NCBI GenBank assembly: GCA_017882685.1
Contig: JADGPA010000106.1
Location: 1-37,127 of the forward strand
DNA from: Propionibacteriaceae bacterium
GTDB taxonomy: Bacteria; Actinomycetota; Actinomycetes; Propionibacteriales; Propionibacteriaceae
DNA: 37,127 bases
Reading direction: 5' to 3'
The notes beneath the pieces are model-generated. The model was given only the letters and a program-made list of their open reading frames with translations, ran no database searches and was not told the origin of the DNA. Position numbers and translations under genes: made by a program. Shown one piece after another: positions 19,840 through 25,778 of this stretch (position 1 is its first letter; every line of letters starts with the position of its first letter).

Positions 19840-20327
19840 TGCGCATCCGTCCGGCCCATCCGGCCGACCTGCCGGCGCTGCTGGAGATCTACAACGACGC
19901 GGTCGTGCACACCACGGCCAGCTGGGACCTGCTGCCGTGGACGCCGGTCGAGCACGCCGAGTGGTACGCCACCAAGGCAGAGCACCGGCACCCGATCCTG
20001 GTCGCGGAGGCCGAAGGGGAGATCCTCGGCTACGCCGGTTACGGGCCGTTCCGGGCGAAGGCGGGCTACGCCGCCACGATGGAGCACAGCGTGTACGTGC
20101 GCCCGTCGAGCCAGGGCAAGGGAGTCGGGCGCAGCCTGCTGGTTGCGATCATCGAGGCTGCCCGGGCCAACGGGGTCCACGCCCTGATCGGTGGTCTCAG
20201 CGCAGACAACGACGTCTCGATGGCCCTGCACAGCTCCCTCGGCTTCGTCGAGGTCGGGCGGCTGCCGGAGGTCGGGCGGAAGTTCGACCGCTGGCTCGAT
20301 CTCGTGCTGCTCCAACTCATCCTCTGA
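19839..20327 (+). CDS. GNAT acetyltransferase, phosphinothricin N-acetyltransferase (Pat/MnaT) type
   Basis: The 162-residue protein matches the Pat/YncA/MnaT branch of GNAT enzymes, which acetylate small amino compounds such as methionine sulfone or phosphinothricin. It opens MRIRPAHPADLPALLEIYNDAVVHTTASWD. The acetyl-CoA loop is EHSVYVRPSSQGKGVGRSLL, and HSSLGFVEVGRLPEVGRKFDRWLDLVLLQ is the typical end. The ATG shares its A with the ftsY stop. The real substrate cannot be told from sequence. Confidence 0.88.
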   Translation: MRIRPAHPADLPALLEIYNDAVVHTTASWDLLPWTPVEHAEWYATKAEHRHPILVAEAEGEILGYAGYGPFRAKAGYAATMEHSVYVRPSSQGKGVGRSLLVAIIEAARANGVHALIGGLSADNDVSMALHSSLGFVEVGRLPEVGRKFDRWLDLVLLQLIL

Positions 20328-20352
20328 CCTCGAACTGCGACAGGAGATCGAA

Positions 20353-21933
20353 GTGGCAACTGCGAACGTCATCGTCGACCGAAGCCAGGGCGTTGCGCCG
20401 GTGCAGCGCCGCGTGTTCGGCTCCTTCGTCGAGCACCTGGGACGCTGCGTGTACACCGGCATCTACGAGCCCGGCCACCCGACGGTGGACGAGCACGGGT
20501 TCCGTGGCGACGTCCTCGCCCTTGTCCGCGAGCTGGGCGTCAGCACGATCCGTTACCCGGGCGGGAACTTCGTCTCCGGTTACCGCTGGGAGGACGGCGT
20601 CGGCCCCTTGGCCCAGCGTCCGCGCCGGCTCGACCTGGCCTGGCACAGCCTCGAGACCAACGAGGTGGGGCTCGACGAGTTCGCCGGCTGGTGCAGGCTC
20701 GCCGGTTGCGAACCGATGCTGGCGGTCAACCTCGGCACCCGCGGCGTCCAGGAGGCCCTGGACGTGCTGGAGTACGCCAACCATCCCGGCGGGACGGCAC
20801 TGTCCGACCAGCGGGTGGCGAACGGGTCGACCGAGCCGCACGACATCCGGATGTGGTGCCTCGGCAACGAGATGGACGGTCCGTGGCAGGTGGGGCACCT
20901 CTCGGCGGGGGAGTACGGCGCGCTGGCGGCCAAGACCGCGGCGGCCATGAAGATGGTCGACCCCACACTGGAGCTCGTGGCCTGCGGTTCATCCGGGTCG
21001 CAGATGCCGACCTTCGGCGAATGGGAACGGGTGGTGCTCGAGGCCGCCTACGACCACGTCGACTACATCTCCGCTCACGCCTACTACCAGGAACACGACG
21101 GCGACCTGGACAGCTTCCTGGCTTCCAGCCTCGACATGGAGTACTTCATCGAGACCGTCGTCGCCACTGCCGACCACGTGCGGTACAAGCTGCGCAAGGA
21201 GCGCGCCATCGCGATCTCCTTCGACGAGTGGAACGTCTGGTACCAGAGCAGGTTCGAGAAGTCCGGCACAATCGCCGAGGGCTGGCCGGTGGCCCCGCGA
21301 CTGCTGGAAGACGTCTACTCCGTGGCCGACGCCGTTGTGGTCGGCAGCCTGCTCATCACGCTGCTGAAGCACAGCGACCGGGTGCGCAGCGCTTCCCTTG
21401 CCCAGCTGGTGAACGTGATCGGCCCGATCATGACCGAGCCCGGTGGGCCGGCGTGGCGCCAGACCACGTTCTTCCCCTTCGCCACGACTGCCCGTCTCGC
21501 CGTGGGTCAGGTGCTCAAGCCGCGCGTGGAGACCGGCACCTACGCCACCGCCCGTCACGGGGACGCGCCAATGGTGGACGCCGTCGCCACCCACGATGCC
21601 GCTACCGGATCTGCTGCGGTCTTCCTCGTCAACCGTTCGCGCGAGGCCGCAGGAGTCCGCATCGACGTCAGCGACCTCGGAGTCGGGGGAGTGAGCGAGG
21701 CCTTGACCCTTGCCGACGCCGATCCGTACGCCACCAACACCCGTGAGCAGCCCGACCGCGTCCAGTTGCGGGCCACGACAGCCGTCCTCACCGACGGCCT
21801 TGTGAGCGTCGAACTGCCGCCGGTCTCCTGGACGGCCCTCGCCCTCGCCCCTAGTGCCGAGTTGTCGCCAATCTCAGCCGCCCATAGCCGGGTGAGATTG
21901 GCGACAACTCGGTGGTGGGGCAGCCGTGGGTAG
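20353..21933 (+). CDS. GH51 alpha-L-arabinofuranosidase
   Basis: GH51 enzymes release L-arabinofuranose from arabino-oligosaccharides, usually in the cytoplasm. The 526-residue protein has no signal peptide. It opens with FGSFVEHLGRCVYTGIYEPGH and IRYPGGNFVSGYRWEDGVGP. The acid/base Glu is E173 (LGNEMDGPWQ) and the nucleophile is E292 (ISFDEWNVWY). GTG 20353 is chosen because AGGAG lies six bases upstream at 20342-20346. The natural end would be near SWTALALA; the last 27 or so residues are encoded by a palindromic repeat and are probably not original. There is no sugar transporter or regulator nearby, so it stands alone between ftsY and ffh. Confidence 0.93.
   Translation: MATANVIVDRSQGVAPVQRRVFGSFVEHLGRCVYTGIYEPGHPTVDEHGFRGDVLALVRELGVSTIRYPGGNFVSGYRWEDGVGPLAQRPRRLDLAWHSLETNEVGLDEFAGWCRLAGCEPMLAVNLGTRGVQEALDVLEYANHPGGTALSDQRVANGSTEPHDIRMWCLGNEMDGPWQVGHLSAGEYGALAAKTAAAMKMVDPTLELVACGSSGSQMPTFGEWERVVLEAAYDHVDYISAHAYYQEHDGDLDSFLASSLDMEYFIETVVATADHVRYKLRKERAIAISFDEWNVWYQSRFEKSGTIAEGWPVAPRLLEDVYSVADAVVVGSLLITLLKHSDRVRSASLAQLVNVIGPIMTEPGGPAWRQTTFFPFATTARLAVGQVLKPRVETGTYATARHGDAPMVDAVATHDAATGSAAVFLVNRSREAAGVRIDVSDLGVGGVSEALTLADADPYATNTREQPDRVQLRATTAVLTDGLVSVELPPVSWTALALAPSAELSPISAAHSRVRLATTRWWGSRG
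21855..21914. repeat. Long hairpin element, copy A
   Basis: A perfect 20-bp stem, CCGAGTTGTCGCCAATCTCA (21857-21876) with its complement at 21893-21912, plus two wobble pairs outside, closes a 16-base loop with core CCATAGC. It shares this loop core and arm pattern (TTGTC, CTCA) with copy B at 24715-24782. It lies inside the 3' end of the arabinofuranosidase frame and before ffh. There is no T-run. Confidence 0.85.
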
Positions 21934-21958
21934 GATGGCGCGCGTTCCCGAGCGTGAG
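21931..21958 (+). promoter_or_regulatory. Promoter and ribosome site of ffh
   Basis: TAGGAT at 21931-21936 overlaps the arabinofuranosidase stop and predicts a start near 21943. GAGG at 21955-21958 lies eight bases before TTG 21967. The place for a -35 falls in the 3' arm of hairpin copy A. Confidence 0.4.
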
Positions 21959-21966
21959 GTATCCCG

Positions 21967-23529
21967 TTGTTCGACACCCTGTCCGATCGCCTGTCCGGCG
22001 CATTCCGCACCCTGCGCGGCAAGACCCGGCTGACCGACGCCGACATCGACGCCACCGCGCGCGAGATCCGGCTGGCCCTGCTCGAGGCCGACGTCAACCT
22101 GGCCGTCGTCAAGGACTTCATCGCAGCGGTGAAGGAGCGCGCCCACGGCGCGGAACTCGCCGGCGCGCTCAATCCCGGCCAGCAGATCGTCAAGATCGTC
22201 AACGATGAACTGGTCACGATCCTCGGTGGGCAGGCGCGGCCGCTGCGCTTCGCCAAGCGCCCGCCGACCGTGATCATGCTGGCCGGCCTCCAGGGCTCAG
22301 GCAAGACGACGCTGGCCGGCAAGCTCGGCAAGTGGCTGAAGGACCAGGGCCACTCGCCGCTGCTGGTCGCCGCCGACCTGCAGCGCCCCAATGCCGTCAC
22401 CCAGCTGCAGGTTGTGGGTGAGCGCGCCGGCGTCCACGTGTTCGCCCCTGAGCCGGGCAACGGCACCGGCGACCCGGTGCAGGTGGCCCGCCAGTCGATC
22501 CTGCACGCGATGAGCAAGCTCTATGACGTGGTGATCGTCGACACCGCCGGCCGCCTCGGCGTGGACGCAGAGCTCATGCAACAGGCCGCGGACATCCGCG
22601 ACGCGGTGAAGCCAACGGAGATCCTGTTCGTCGTCGACGCGATGATCGGCCAGGACGCGGTCAATACGGCCCGAGCGTTCGCCGACGGCGTCGGTTTCGA
22701 CGGCGTGGTGCTGTCCAAGCTGGACGGCGATGCCCGCGGCGGCGCTGCACTCTCCATCGCCCGGGTCACTGGCAAGCCGATCATGTTCGCCTCCAACGGC
22801 GAGGGCTTGGGCGACTTCGACGCGTTCTACCCCGACCGGATGGCCAGCCGCATCCTCGGCATGGGCGACATCCTCACCCTGATCGAGCAGGCGGAGAAGA
22901 CCTTCGACGCCGAGGAGTCCGCGAAGGCCACCCAGAAGCTGCTGTCCGGCAAGGGTGGCGAGTTCGGCCTTGACGACTTCCTGCAGCAGATGCAGGCCGT
23001 GCGCCGCATGGGCCCGCTGTCGAAGATCCTGGGAATGATGCCCGGCATGGGCCAGATGAAGGACCAGATCGCCGGCATCGATGAGCGCGAGATCGACCGC
23101 ATCGAGGCGATCATCTACTCGATGACCCCCGCCGAGCGCACCAACCCGAAGATGCTGGACGGCTCCCGCCGCGCCCGGATCGCGAAGGGTTCGGGAACGC
23201 AGGTTTCCGACGTGAACTCCCTGGTGAACCGCTTCTTCGAGGCCCGCAAGATGATGCAGAGCCTCGCCGGTGGCGGCATGCCGGGCATGCCGGGCGTGCG
23301 CCGTCCCGCTGTGAAGCAGGCGCCCAAGAAGAAGGGCAACAAGGTCTCGGGCAACCCGGCCAAGCGCACCGGCGCGCCGGCGGCAAAGGCTGTCGAGCCG
23401 GCCGCCCCCGCGTCCGCTTCCGGACGTCCGCAGCCGAGCGAGGCCGACCTGGCCAAGGCGGTCGGGGACTTCCAGCTGCCCGCGGAGTTGCAGCAGTTGT
23501 TCAACCCGAAGTCCAACGGTCCGCGCTGA
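21967..23529 (+). CDS. ffh: Signal recognition particle protein Ffh
   Basis: Ffh binds signal peptides and 4.5S RNA and pairs with FtsY. The 520-residue protein has an N domain (FDTLSDRLSGAFRTLRGKTRL), then G motifs GSGKTT (110-115), ADLQRPNAVTQL, DTAGRLGVDAELM and SKLDGDARGG. The Met-rich M domain has LQQMQAVRRMGPLSKILGMMPGMG and SRRARIAKGSGTQVSDVNSLVNRFFEARKMM. The Lys/Pro/Ala tail after about residue 435 is variable in this family. The start is TTG 21967, fixed by the N domain. FtsY is 2.1 kb upstream. Confidence 0.98.
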   Translation: MFDTLSDRLSGAFRTLRGKTRLTDADIDATAREIRLALLEADVNLAVVKDFIAAVKERAHGAELAGALNPGQQIVKIVNDELVTILGGQARPLRFAKRPPTVIMLAGLQGSGKTTLAGKLGKWLKDQGHSPLLVAADLQRPNAVTQLQVVGERAGVHVFAPEPGNGTGDPVQVARQSILHAMSKLYDVVIVDTAGRLGVDAELMQQAADIRDAVKPTEILFVVDAMIGQDAVNTARAFADGVGFDGVVLSKLDGDARGGAALSIARVTGKPIMFASNGEGLGDFDAFYPDRMASRILGMGDILTLIEQAEKTFDAEESAKATQKLLSGKGGEFGLDDFLQQMQAVRRMGPLSKILGMMPGMGQMKDQIAGIDEREIDRIEAIIYSMTPAERTNPKMLDGSRRARIAKGSGTQVSDVNSLVNRFFEARKMMQSLAGGGMPGMPGVRRPAVKQAPKKKGNKVSGNPAKRTGAPAAKAVEPAAPASASGRPQPSEADLAKAVGDFQLPAELQQLFNPKSNGPR

Positions 23530-23535
23530 GGCGCC

Positions 23536-23554
23536 GGTCTCGACAGGCTCGACC
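23536..23554. repeat. Dispersed intergenic repeat, copy 2
   Basis: GGTCTCGACAGGCTCGACC is the inverted partner of bases 948-966, with one mismatch in 19. It fills most of the 29-base gap between ffh and the amidohydrolase start. Confidence 0.55.
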
Positions 23555-23558
23555 AACG

Positions 23559-24725
23559 ATGACCGAACATGCGCCGCCCGGGCTGGGTGAGGCGTCCTTC
23601 TTCGCGCACGGCCATGGCACGACAGCGCCCGCCGGCGACCCCGAGCGCCAGCGGCTGCACCTGAACGGGGTGCTGCTGCCTGGGGGCGAGGTCACGGACC
23701 TGTGGGTGGTGGACGGAGTGGTGCGCACCGAACCGGTCGCCGAAGCTGTGACGGTCTGCACGGGTGCCTGGATCATGCCGGGCCTCGTCGACGCCCACTG
23801 CCACGTCGGACTCGGGCTGCACGGCGCTGTGCCAACGGACGTGGCCGAGTCGCAGGCGCTGGCCGACCGGGGCGCCGGCACCCTGCTGATCCGGGACGCC
23901 GGCTCGCCGGTCGACACGCACTGGATCGACGAGCGGGCCGACCTGCCACGCATCATCCGGGCCGGACGCCACGTCGCCCGGCCGTTCCGCTACATCCGCA
24001 ACTACGCAGAAGAGGTCGAGCCCGAGGCCCTTGTGGACGAGGTCGCCCGCCAGGCCGTGCGTGGTGACGGTTGGGTGAAGCTGGTCGGCGACTGGATCGA
24101 CAGGGACGCCGGCGACCTCGCCCCGCTATGGCCGGCAGACGTGGCTGCAGCAGCCATCGCACGTGCCCACGAGCTCGGGGCCCGGGTCACCGCGCACTGC
24201 TTCGGCGAGGAGTCGGTGCACGAACTCGTGCGGGCCGGCATCGACGGCATCGAGCACGGCACCGGCCTGGACGCCGCGACGATCGCACTGATGGCAGAGC
24301 GCGGCGTCGCCCTCGTCCCGACCCTGATCAACCTTGAGAACTTCCCCGGCTTCGCCGACGCAGGGGAGGCCAGGTTCCCCGCCTACGCCCGGCACATGCG
24401 CGGCCTGCACGCCCGGCGCTTCACCACCATCACCGCAGCCATCGAGGCCGGGGTGCCGGTGTACGCGGGCACTGACGCCGGCGGCACCATCAGCCACGGT
24501 CTGGTCGGCATAGAGATCGGGCTGCTGGCGAGGCTCGGTGGTGCGGACTTCGCGCTCGGTGCTGCGTCCTGGCGTGCCCGCGAATGGCTGGGCACGCCGC
24601 CCGTCGCGGACGGCGCATGGGCCGACCTGGTCGTCTACGACGGCGACCCGCGACTCGACCCGGGCGTCACCCGCACCCCGCGCCTGGTGATCCTGCGCGG
24701 CCGCGTCGTCACCTCCCACCCCTGA
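23559..24725 (+). CDS. Metal-dependent amidohydrolase (imidazolonepropionase/prolidase-like)
   Basis: The 388-residue protein has all amidohydrolase metal motifs: DAHCHVG (His80, His82), a Lys in WVKLVGDW, His in VTAHCFGEES, His in IDGIEHGTGLD and Asp in YAGTDAGGT. The N- and C-terminal parts form the small composite beta domain (LHLNGVLLPGGEVTDLWVVDG, and WADLVVYDGDPRLDPG). The substrate is unknown. ATG 23559 has no clear ribosome site, so the exact start is open; the first 30 residues are not conserved-looking. The stop lies inside the arm of hairpin copy B. Confidence 0.88.
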   Translation: MTEHAPPGLGEASFFAHGHGTTAPAGDPERQRLHLNGVLLPGGEVTDLWVVDGVVRTEPVAEAVTVCTGAWIMPGLVDAHCHVGLGLHGAVPTDVAESQALADRGAGTLLIRDAGSPVDTHWIDERADLPRIIRAGRHVARPFRYIRNYAEEVEPEALVDEVARQAVRGDGWVKLVGDWIDRDAGDLAPLWPADVAAAAIARAHELGARVTAHCFGEESVHELVRAGIDGIEHGTGLDAATIALMAERGVALVPTLINLENFPGFADAGEARFPAYARHMRGLHARRFTTITAAIEAGVPVYAGTDAGGTISHGLVGIEIGLLARLGGADFALGAASWRAREWLGTPPVADGAWADLVVYDGDPRLDPGVTRTPRLVILRGRVVTSHP

Positions 24726-24782
24726 CTTGTCAGAACCTCACGCCGCCATAGCGACGTGAGGTTCTGACAAGTCAGGGGTGGG
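24715..24782. repeat. Long hairpin element, copy B, between convergent genes
   Basis: A perfect 28-bp stem (24715-24742 with 24755-24782) closes a 12-base loop, CCGCCATAGCGA. The left arm includes the amidohydrolase stop TGA (24723-24725) and the right arm ends seven bases before the protease stop on the other strand. It could stop transcription from both sides, though no T-run is present. The loop core and arm pattern match copy A. Confidence 0.9.
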
Positions 24783-24788
24783 GTGGGG

Positions 24789-25708
24789 TCAGCCGCTCAG
24801 CTCGCGCGGGACGGCGATCACATCGACGAGTGCTCCGTTGCGCCACACGGTGATCTCCACCGGACGTCCGATCGCCTCCTCGACCATCCAGCGCTGCAGG
24901 CTGGTTGCCGATCCCATCGGTTCCCCGGCGACGGCAACCACGATGTCCCCTGGACGGGGGCAGCCACCGCAGCCGGACTTCCGGGCACCACCTGAGCGAC
25001 CCGAAGGCCGCTGCGCCGGCTCAGCTTGGCGGCCAGTTGCGGCGGCAGGGGCGACTGCCGGGCCGCGATTCCCAGCCAGGCCCGTCGCACCTTCCCGGTG
25101 GTCATCAGGGCGCCGATGATCCGCTGGGTGCTGGCGTTGATCGGCACTGCCAGGCCGACGCCGACTCCCGCGACGGCGGTGTTCACCCCGACCATGCGTC
25201 CGCGGCTGTCGGCGAGCACCCCGCCGCTGTTCCCCGGGTTGAGCGCAGCGTCGGTCTGGATCACCTCGTCGACAACCCGGCCGCCGCTGGTGGGTAGCGA
25301 GCGACCCAGCCCCGAGACGATGCCGGCGGTCACCGTCCCTGCGAGGCCCAGGGGGTTGCCGAGCGCCACGACCAGTTGGCCGACCTGCAGCATCGCCGCG
25401 TCCCCGAGGGTGACCGGTGGTGGCAGATCGCCGCGGGCGCGCAGCACGGCAAGGTCCGACAGCGGGTCCCTGCCCGTGACGTCTGCGACGGTCTCCGTGC
25501 CGTCGGTGAAGGCAGCCGTCGCCTCCCTCGCTCCCGCAACGACATGTGCGCTGGTGAGCAGGTAGCCGTCGGCGGTGAGCACGCTGGCACTACCCGCACC
25601 CTCGCCACGTTCACCGCGGACGTGGAGGCTGGCAACGCTTGGCAGCACCTGCTGGGCGACCCGCACCACCGCCTCCGAGTAGGCGTCCAGGGCTTCTTCG
25701 TCCTCCAT
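24789..25708 (-). CDS. S1C (HtrA/DegP-type) serine protease with a frameshift in the PDZ domain
   Basis: The trypsin-like core is intact: His in YLLTSAHVVAGA, Asp in DPLSDLAVLRA and Ser in ALNPGNSGGVL. There is no signal peptide or membrane helix. In the PDZ domain the frame breaks after VVPGSPAAVAAP, at a run of five G (24956-24960 on the + strand). As read, it ends out of frame at 24818 with a low-quality tail. Adding one base restores RPGDIVVAVAGEPMGSATSLQRWM and a normal end at 24789, giving 306 residues. ATG 25708 (MEDEEALDAYSEAVV) is preferred to TTG 25756, which adds 16 unconserved residues. It may be a real mutation or a sequencing error. Confidence 0.8.
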
Positions 25709-25778
25709 ACCCGACAAACGCCGGCGACGGTCGCTGCTGTTCCGCTGTTCGCCCAAGGCTCAGCAACACAGGGCTCAG

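Follow-up and report, generated by a model that had tools for sequence, protein, structure and literature searches.

Short dispersed palindromes are common in bacteria. In the excerpts available to us of two accounts of such repeats (Bertels and Rainey 2011, PMC3116915; Di Nocera 2013, PMC3733652), the RAYT transposase is the only partner enzyme named for them; the excerpt of the second account adds that the CGTC class of repetitive extragenic palindromic sequences (REPs) has no dedicated transposase, and the phyla that it names for the GTAG and CGTC classes do not include Actinobacteria. Here we report on two hairpins, A and B, in a 37,127-nucleotide stretch of the genome of a Propionibacteriaceae bacterium (assembly GCA_017882685.1, contig JADGPA010000106.1; hereafter the window), where they head the inverted-repeat listing (B as I1 and A as I2). 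We consider it probable that both are non-autonomous copies of a REPIN-like palindrome of actinobacteria that a nuclease, rather than a RAYT, maintains; it is the association of palindrome and nuclease gene that was observed, and we infer the action of the protein. As in the excerpted description of REPINs (PMC3116915), the element consists of two conserved inverted ends around a variable spacer, forms a hairpin and is extragenic for the most part.

Results

The first-pass annotation of the window had taken A and B for members of a single dispersed family of hairpins with a common CTCA/TGAG frame, 16 intervening bases, the core CCATAGC at an equal offset, and differences between the arms that are compensated. 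The hairpins, their frame and the compensation can be read directly in the sequence, and a covariance model derived from 22 of the copies did find 37 distinct ones in the own genome (G000, the source of the window; other G numbers denote the genomes compared with it and L numbers the fetched loci), reported in 74 rows as every copy scores on both strands. The unit consists of an outer arm CCGASTTGTCAG, 30 inner bases and a second outer arm CTGACAASTCGG; the latter 12-mer occurs 36+33 times in the own genome, versus 1+0 occurrences of the reversed control pattern. Among the matches listed, obtained with a pattern that permitted 44-66 bp, 125 of 134 elements measure exactly 54 bp, and the 134 fetched loci contain 147 arm pairs with a span of 54 bp, nine with one of 51-58 bp and two exact arms that stand alone. 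Solo arms were seen also at G000:C20 (L160) and G000:C148 (L161), and two long variants of about 133-140 bp, near position 1557 of G000:C57 (L072) and near 2809 of G000:C93 (L071), have an extra insert in common between the arms. An autonomous long transposon with CCGASTTGTCAG-type ends was considered as well, and none was seen in the loci examined.

Paired change within the unit was assessed in 169 copies with exact outer arms and a length of 54 bp, a set that excludes other lengths, duplicates and copies near contig ends; because the search pattern imposed the exact outer arms, these are not evidence in themselves, while length and inner pairing are. Inner positions 13-23 are paired in 62-97% of these copies versus 30-81% with shuffled partners (z 9-15, values that are inflated because the copies are related). 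When one copy was kept per cluster, leaving 62 representatives with inner arms less than 80% alike, the same positions gave z 4.5-10, and 20 copies less than 60% alike gave z 1.5-4.7. In the full set, the centre positions 24-27 show little or no excess pairing (z -1.9 to 2.4), and flank positions 1, 2, 3 and 5 pair above shuffled expectation (z 6.3, 4.5, 2.7 and 4.2, respectively). No tag accompanies the unit: within 12 nt of its ends, GTAG was found in five of the 169 copies (shuffled mean 23.1) and CGTC in 27 (shuffled 22.7).

An exact element pair is present in 17 of 391 genomes of the order, and the reversed control of this two-arm pattern in none of the 391. The spread is patchy, with tens of copies in few genomes (G011 57, G277 46, G027 45, G000 30, G350 23 and G298 17, the other 11 carriers having at most eight each) and none in most relatives. 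At least 114 stretches matched the two-arm pattern in the named genome collection, in which a stricter pattern gave none, and among the 80 titled stretches listed 79 belong to Actinomycetota and one, a 51-bp match, to a Bacteroidaceae bin. The Actinomycetota carriers among the matches listed are Microlunatus, Propionicimonas, other Propionibacteriaceae and Propionibacteriales, Nocardioidaceae, Actinopolymorpha, Isoptericola, Cellulomonas, Glaciihabitans, one Frankiaceae bin and one Geodermatophilaceae bin, and the outer arms are found again across orders. The pattern had no match in viral contigs. Elements of 55-57 bp from Nocardioidaceae and Propionibacteriales bins (L186, L210, L218, L219, L222 and L290, the last without title) have exact outer arms and a poorly paired interior, and several of them have GTGTCCACTG or its complement in common.

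A gene outside the window is boxed by two of these elements. In the own genome, a 321-residue open reading frame (ORF; G000:C181:949-1914) lies between elements at 823-876 and 1877-1930, and its ortholog in G011, 68% identical, is likewise boxed. A profile made from these two proteins was searched in 30 chosen genomes, where a match was called strong at E<=1e-57 and boxed when an element with no more than two mismatches in its arms stood on each side. Twelve of the 13 distinct strong matches (G071 duplicates G350) are boxed, or 11 of 12 when the profile builders G000 and G011 are set aside; they are those of G000, G277, Microlunatus speluncae (two), G350, G076, G298, G070, G360, G067, G163 and Isoptericola, with the G298 match covering 271 of the 321 profile positions and the G163 reading frame broken. 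The sole strong match that is not boxed, in G074, has a single arm inside the ORF. Of the weaker matches, 16 came with a fetched locus, and none of these is boxed (eight more had no locus, and contig ends truncate some of the loci); in three weaker rows, two of them pieces of one Cellulomonas gene and the third from G075, a single decayed element stands to one side of the gene. Together with G011, the boxed strong matches make 13 boxed units in 12 genomes, the own genome included, each coding for a protein of about 320 residues. In 11 units the 5' element precedes the start codon, assigned by alignment, by 54-141 bp, and in 10 units the stop codon is touched or overlapped by the 3' element. 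In the own genome the partner gene has as neighbours a gene of isocitrate/isopropylmalate dehydrogenase type and a glycosyltransferase gene, and no toxin.

A second case was found in G340 and G342, which belong to another family of the order, probably the Nocardioidaceae. Here a related repeat, the 17-mer CCGAGTTGTCACGTACG, stands in inverted arrays, with five and six pairs of this variant repeat, around one 320-residue gene. The partner protein was found neither in viral contigs nor in plasmids; a relative 31% identical is encoded at MT837139.1:3670-4521, in a phage record of 7.6 kb that comes from human faeces; it is the sole phage match.

Based on profile matches, the partner is predicted to join an AbiEi-like domain for DNA binding to a nuclease domain resembling DUF559. 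In the alignment A3, which holds 12 proteins (11 boxed ones and that of G074, with G298 and G163 excluded for broken frames), the N-terminal half matches AbiEi profiles in all 12 (best 8e-20), and PADLOC AbiEi models match too; at E<=0.1 the C-terminal half matches DUF559 in eight (best 1e-5) and the MTES_1575 restriction endonuclease (REase) in three, and LD..W..G..ExDGxxH..W..D..R is invariant. The partners in G340 and G342 match AbiEi as well (1e-11 and 1e-12), and the main group stands apart from them in a tree whose long branches leave the details unsure; G074, labelled boxed in that tree, groups with an unflanked paralog. A search of PDB sequences with the partner gave a chance-level match only (E 1.1), and the AlphaFold model of the single G011 protein, with a mean predicted local distance difference test score of 39.5, was too poor for use.

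Gene and element go together across genomes. Among genomes at least 90% complete, the boxed gene was present in all six tested that have five or more exact copies (G011, G277, G298, G350, G076 and G360) and in none of the eight tested without an exact pair (G007, G008, G014, G028, G092, G154, G001 and G026; Fisher p 0.0003), a count that leaves out G340 and G342, which have their own boxed gene and on which the partner profile was not run. By mean, the elements of a unit are most like the dispersed copies of their own genome in six of nine units. Microlunatus speluncae has two genes and two inner-arm types, and the 33 dispersed copies sampled there comprise 26 of one type, four of the other and three of neither. 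Similarity of the protein and similarity of the inner arms are correlated over 10 units (Mantel r 0.49, p 0.003).

The orthologous locus was compared in 30 genomes with ffh as anchor. The nearest relative by this gene, G027 (95% identical), is without element A, its sequence aligned to the end of the arabinofuranosidase ORF being CTCGGCTGA, and at the site of B (L103) it has the right arm CTGACAAGTCGG alone left, between C-rich and G-rich flanks. Element B is missing at the ffh locus of G011, G015 and G026, and G011 has a copy of its own just after ffh. Two further element loci, L175 (G053) and L264, show a match to ffh of other genomes as well, and there the element is placed differently; this may be coincidence. 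A separate REP-type system was found at genes for Y1_Tnp, 16 of 20 such loci (L140-L159) being boxed by other repeats, of GGGGACGGTTCC/GGAACCGTCCCC type or GGGGACnGTCCCC; the site of element A in G015 holds a repeat of this Y1-locus type (L106).

Turnover of the interior was followed in 18 site pairs of G000 with G027, G011 or G024, at a mean flank identity of 84%; 34 of the 37 own copies fitted the frame. At sites common to two genomes the inner arms are often wholly different, yet still paired. To the ortholog their identity is 0.602, and to non-orthologs it is 0.598 (p 0.83); among copies of one genome it is 0.687 (p 0.004). The p values are rough because some copies enter two pairs. Since the inner arms are no closer to the ortholog than to other copies, and are closer within a genome, the interior keeps no memory of its site, and the copies in a genome evolve together.

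Genomic setting was called with a simple codon-usage gene caller, which missed the arabinofuranosidase ORF at element A. Of the 37 own copies, 12 are flanked by convergent genes and four by divergent ones, and the other 21 are in tandem settings (including one inside an ORF), versus 37 convergent, 152 tandem and 37 divergent among all 226 junctions of the same loci, those bearing elements included. For about 29 of the 37, as read from the setting table, a predicted gene boundary overlaps the element or lies no more than 20 bp away. In Microlunatus speluncae there are arrays of element plus spacer with a period of 107 bp (L242) and 104 bp (L258), and L183 is likewise an array. Interiors differ more than spacers in L242 (0.139 versus 0.025) and L258 (0.111 versus 0.04); in L183 the interiors are identical, and the downstream flanks, compared ungapped and with insertions not handled, differ at 55 and 105 of 150 positions. 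The idea that interiors are hypermutable in tandem arrays fits L242 and L258, but L183 opposes it.

Table 1. Features of the window around hairpins A and B
Feature	Position	Strand	Description
Element A	21857-21912	none	56-bp variant; outer arms CCGAGTTGTCGCC/GGCGACAACTCGG; loop core CCATAGC; GTCGCC replaces GTCAG; arms 21857-21880/21889-21912, 23 of 24 positions paired; covariance-model match G000:C16:21854-21915, 58.9 bits
Element B	24722-24775	none	regular 54-bp copy; outer arms CTGACTTGTCAG/CTGACAAGTCAG; model match 24719-24778, 79.6 bits
Full hairpin B	24715-24782	none	adds a C-rich/G-rich stem extension beyond the 54-bp unit; arms 24715-24746/24751-24782, 31 of 32 positions paired
ORF with alpha-L-arabinofuranosidase C-terminal domain	20191-21933	+	last codons contain element A
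ffh (SRP54)	21967-23529	+	next gene downstream of element A
Amidohydrolase gene	23559-24725	+	stop codon 24723-24725 within element B
Trypsin-like protease ORF	24818-25756	-	converges on element B

The features of the window are collected in Table 1. The length and type of element A are unique among the fetched loci. Shuffled sequence folds far less well than either hairpin (z = -8.2 for A and -9.9 for B, with none of 200 shuffles folding equally well), and the fold of 24705-24795 around B reaches -70.9 kcal/mol. Rfam gave sub-threshold matches only for the hairpins, mostly of microRNA type, which we read as artefacts of long hairpins. The placement across the 3' ends of genes that the first-pass annotation gave to both holds for B, which overlaps a stop codon; A lies inside the last codons of its ORF. 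Between ffh and the amidohydrolase gene, GGTCTCGACAGGCTCGACCAACGA at 23536-23559 resembles a further short quasi-palindromic repeat.

Discussion

To account for these data, we propose that the partner protein would bind the outer arms, a step suggested by the binding of inverted repeats that the excerpted account of AbiEi proteins describes (PMC7319586), and would cut the element, probably when this is folded into a hairpin or cruciform, after which repair or replication from another copy would overwrite the interior and sometimes seed new sites. The outer arms would then be conserved in sequence because the protein grips them, and length and pairing would stay constant because the cut is made in the hairpin or cruciform form. 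The nuclease gene itself, like that of a RAYT, would keep its locus and remain in single or few copies as the palindromes increase in number. Most of the elements that persist would be found close to gene ends, since these are the places where they are least harmful, possibly with a secondary role as bidirectional terminators; transcription termination may be a side effect. We see about an even chance that these palindromes represent a new selfish or domesticated class of actinobacterial repeat, replicated or overwritten genome-wide by a dedicated AbiEi-like/REase-like nuclease and not by a transposase, in which each nuclease lineage drives its own inner-arm subfamily and of which at least two versions exist (the 54-bp CCGASTTGTCAG element and CCGAGTTGTCACGTACG). 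Among the readings offered by the first-pass annotation, small mobile palindromes that are copied so that their arms stay symmetric fit best. The compensation of arm changes, which held overall in the further copies, has its exceptions: position 5 of the outer arm, paired in 69% of copies versus 51% when shuffled (z 5), is a G.G or C.C mismatch in 52 of 169.

Several points weigh against this proposal. Cleavage, binding and movement were not observed. The cut-off for strong matches was set after the scores had been seen, the Pfam scores for DUF559 and AbiEi_4 are under the cut-off in the members shown, and unflanked paralogs sit among the boxed proteins in the tree. The gene neighbourhood is common to several units, in one group across genera, and the partner gene is therefore mostly inherited in place rather than jumping. 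The ffh-locus comparison shows no target duplication, and the sites that lack an element are not cleanly empty. Strong gene matches are missing from G027 (45 copies, 80% complete), G024 (72% complete) and G017 (100% complete, with decayed copies), as well as from the carriers G021, G015 and G365; copies are few or decayed in these three and in G017, and to explain the missing gene by incompleteness or loss is to make excuses for it. The elements of the G298 unit are unlike the dispersed copies sampled in that genome, and those of Mspel_a and G076 are not the best by mean (G076 is second). The correlation of protein and inner arms falls to r 0.32 (p 0.04) without G011 and to r 0.28 (p 0.11) without G011 and G000.

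The first-pass annotation had also suggested terminators or RNA-end protectors, and the hairpins could indeed be shared intrinsic bidirectional terminators or protectors of mRNA 3' ends, kept by selection on the hairpin and not mobile. The share of own copies between convergent genes, the many that lie at a gene boundary, the paired change by which stems extend beyond the unit and the very stable folds all agree with such a role. We nonetheless hold it unlikely, as no terminator-like T-run site was found in window 21700-25000 and TTTT follows within 14 nt of the unit in only two of the 169 copies, while termination requires neither a fixed 54 bp nor outer arms that recur across orders. Nor does it predict that few genomes carry elements and close relatives do not, that orthologous sites are empty, that inner arms lack memory of their site, that four of the 37 own copies lie between divergent genes, or that a gene is boxed.

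It is also conceivable, and we think quite improbable, that the AbiEi-REase protein serves in regulation or as a nuclease against phages, with the boxing palindromes as its operators or self-marks and the dispersed copies as recruited binding sites, not mobile DNA. According to the excerpted account (PMC7319586), the promoter of AbiEi antitoxins carries inverted repeats to which they themselves bind, and the position of the 5' element upstream of the start codon, that of the 3' element at the stop codon and the PADLOC AbiEi match are all in keeping with this idea. A duplex operator, however, requires neither a self-complementary interior nor inner arms homogenised within a genome, and the small number of dispersed own copies between divergent genes speaks against recruited operators.

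An ordinary miniature inverted-repeat transposable element (MITE), mobilised by a DDE transposase through 12-bp terminal inverted repeats, would have the short conserved ends and variable interior seen here, and the longer variants at C57 and C93 could be cited in its favour. We regard it as very improbable, since no element with ends further apart occurs in the 134 fetched loci, the interior retains its pairing and there is no target duplication in the loci examined. The 30 bp between the ends are, moreover, too short for looping of duplex DNA. Least credible of all is a classical REP/REPIN mobilised by a RAYT (a Y1 HUH transposase), a candidate that looked strong at first, given the short palindromes near gene ends, the tandem clusters, the two conserved ends around a variable middle and a Y1_Tnp gene in 14 of 30 genus genomes (G000, G011, G024, G027, G017, G015 and G021 included), and that we rejected because the Y1 loci are flanked by other repeats, none of the 20 examined (of 21 matches) showing the 54-bp element, and because Y1_Tnp is missing from 15 of 16 further carrier genomes, Microlunatus speluncae included, with Actinopolymorpha alba as the exception.

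If the nuclease-driven account that we favour is true, a lifestyle like that of REPIN-RAYT has evolved around an enzyme of quite another kind, a repeat-boxed nuclease that stays at a fixed place while its palindromes multiply and homogenise, and DUF559/AbiEi-type proteins of unknown function would acquire a role. A literature search whose coverage left out most subscription journals found no account of these repeats or of a DUF559/AbiEi partner of palindromic repeats. The traits by which a REP or REPIN is recognised were in part found here, namely dispersal, a mostly extragenic position, tens of copies and two conserved inverted ends; a RAYT, and flanking of it by the element, were not. Tandem clusters, many dispersed copies and a single-copy flanked gene that is apparently immobile are further likenesses to the REPIN-RAYT system as described in the excerpt of Bertels and Rainey (PMC3116915), from which our element differs in that the partner is predicted to be a fusion of DNA-binder and nuclease and not a Y1 HUH transposase, and in having a fixed 54-bp unit, 12-mers where REPINs have 16-mers, and an interior that keeps its pairing. 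With the GTAG and CGTC REPs, as far as the excerpt of Di Nocera describes them (PMC3733652), it has in common that short dispersed palindromes lie mostly downstream of genes, and it differs in lacking a tag, in its longer unit and in its dedicated partner gene. The partner protein has an N-terminal AbiEi-like domain as do the AbiEi antitoxins of type IV toxin-antitoxin systems in the excerpted account (PMC7319586); unlike those, it has a nuclease-like C-terminal half, and its neighbours in the own genome are not a toxin. Lastly, by description in the excerpt consulted (PMC6083498), the EDxHD (Vsr-like) homing endonucleases offer the parallel of a small nuclease that promotes the copying of DNA through the repair of a break, with the difference that the partner reported here is not borne by an intron or intein and that its target would be a dispersed palindrome.

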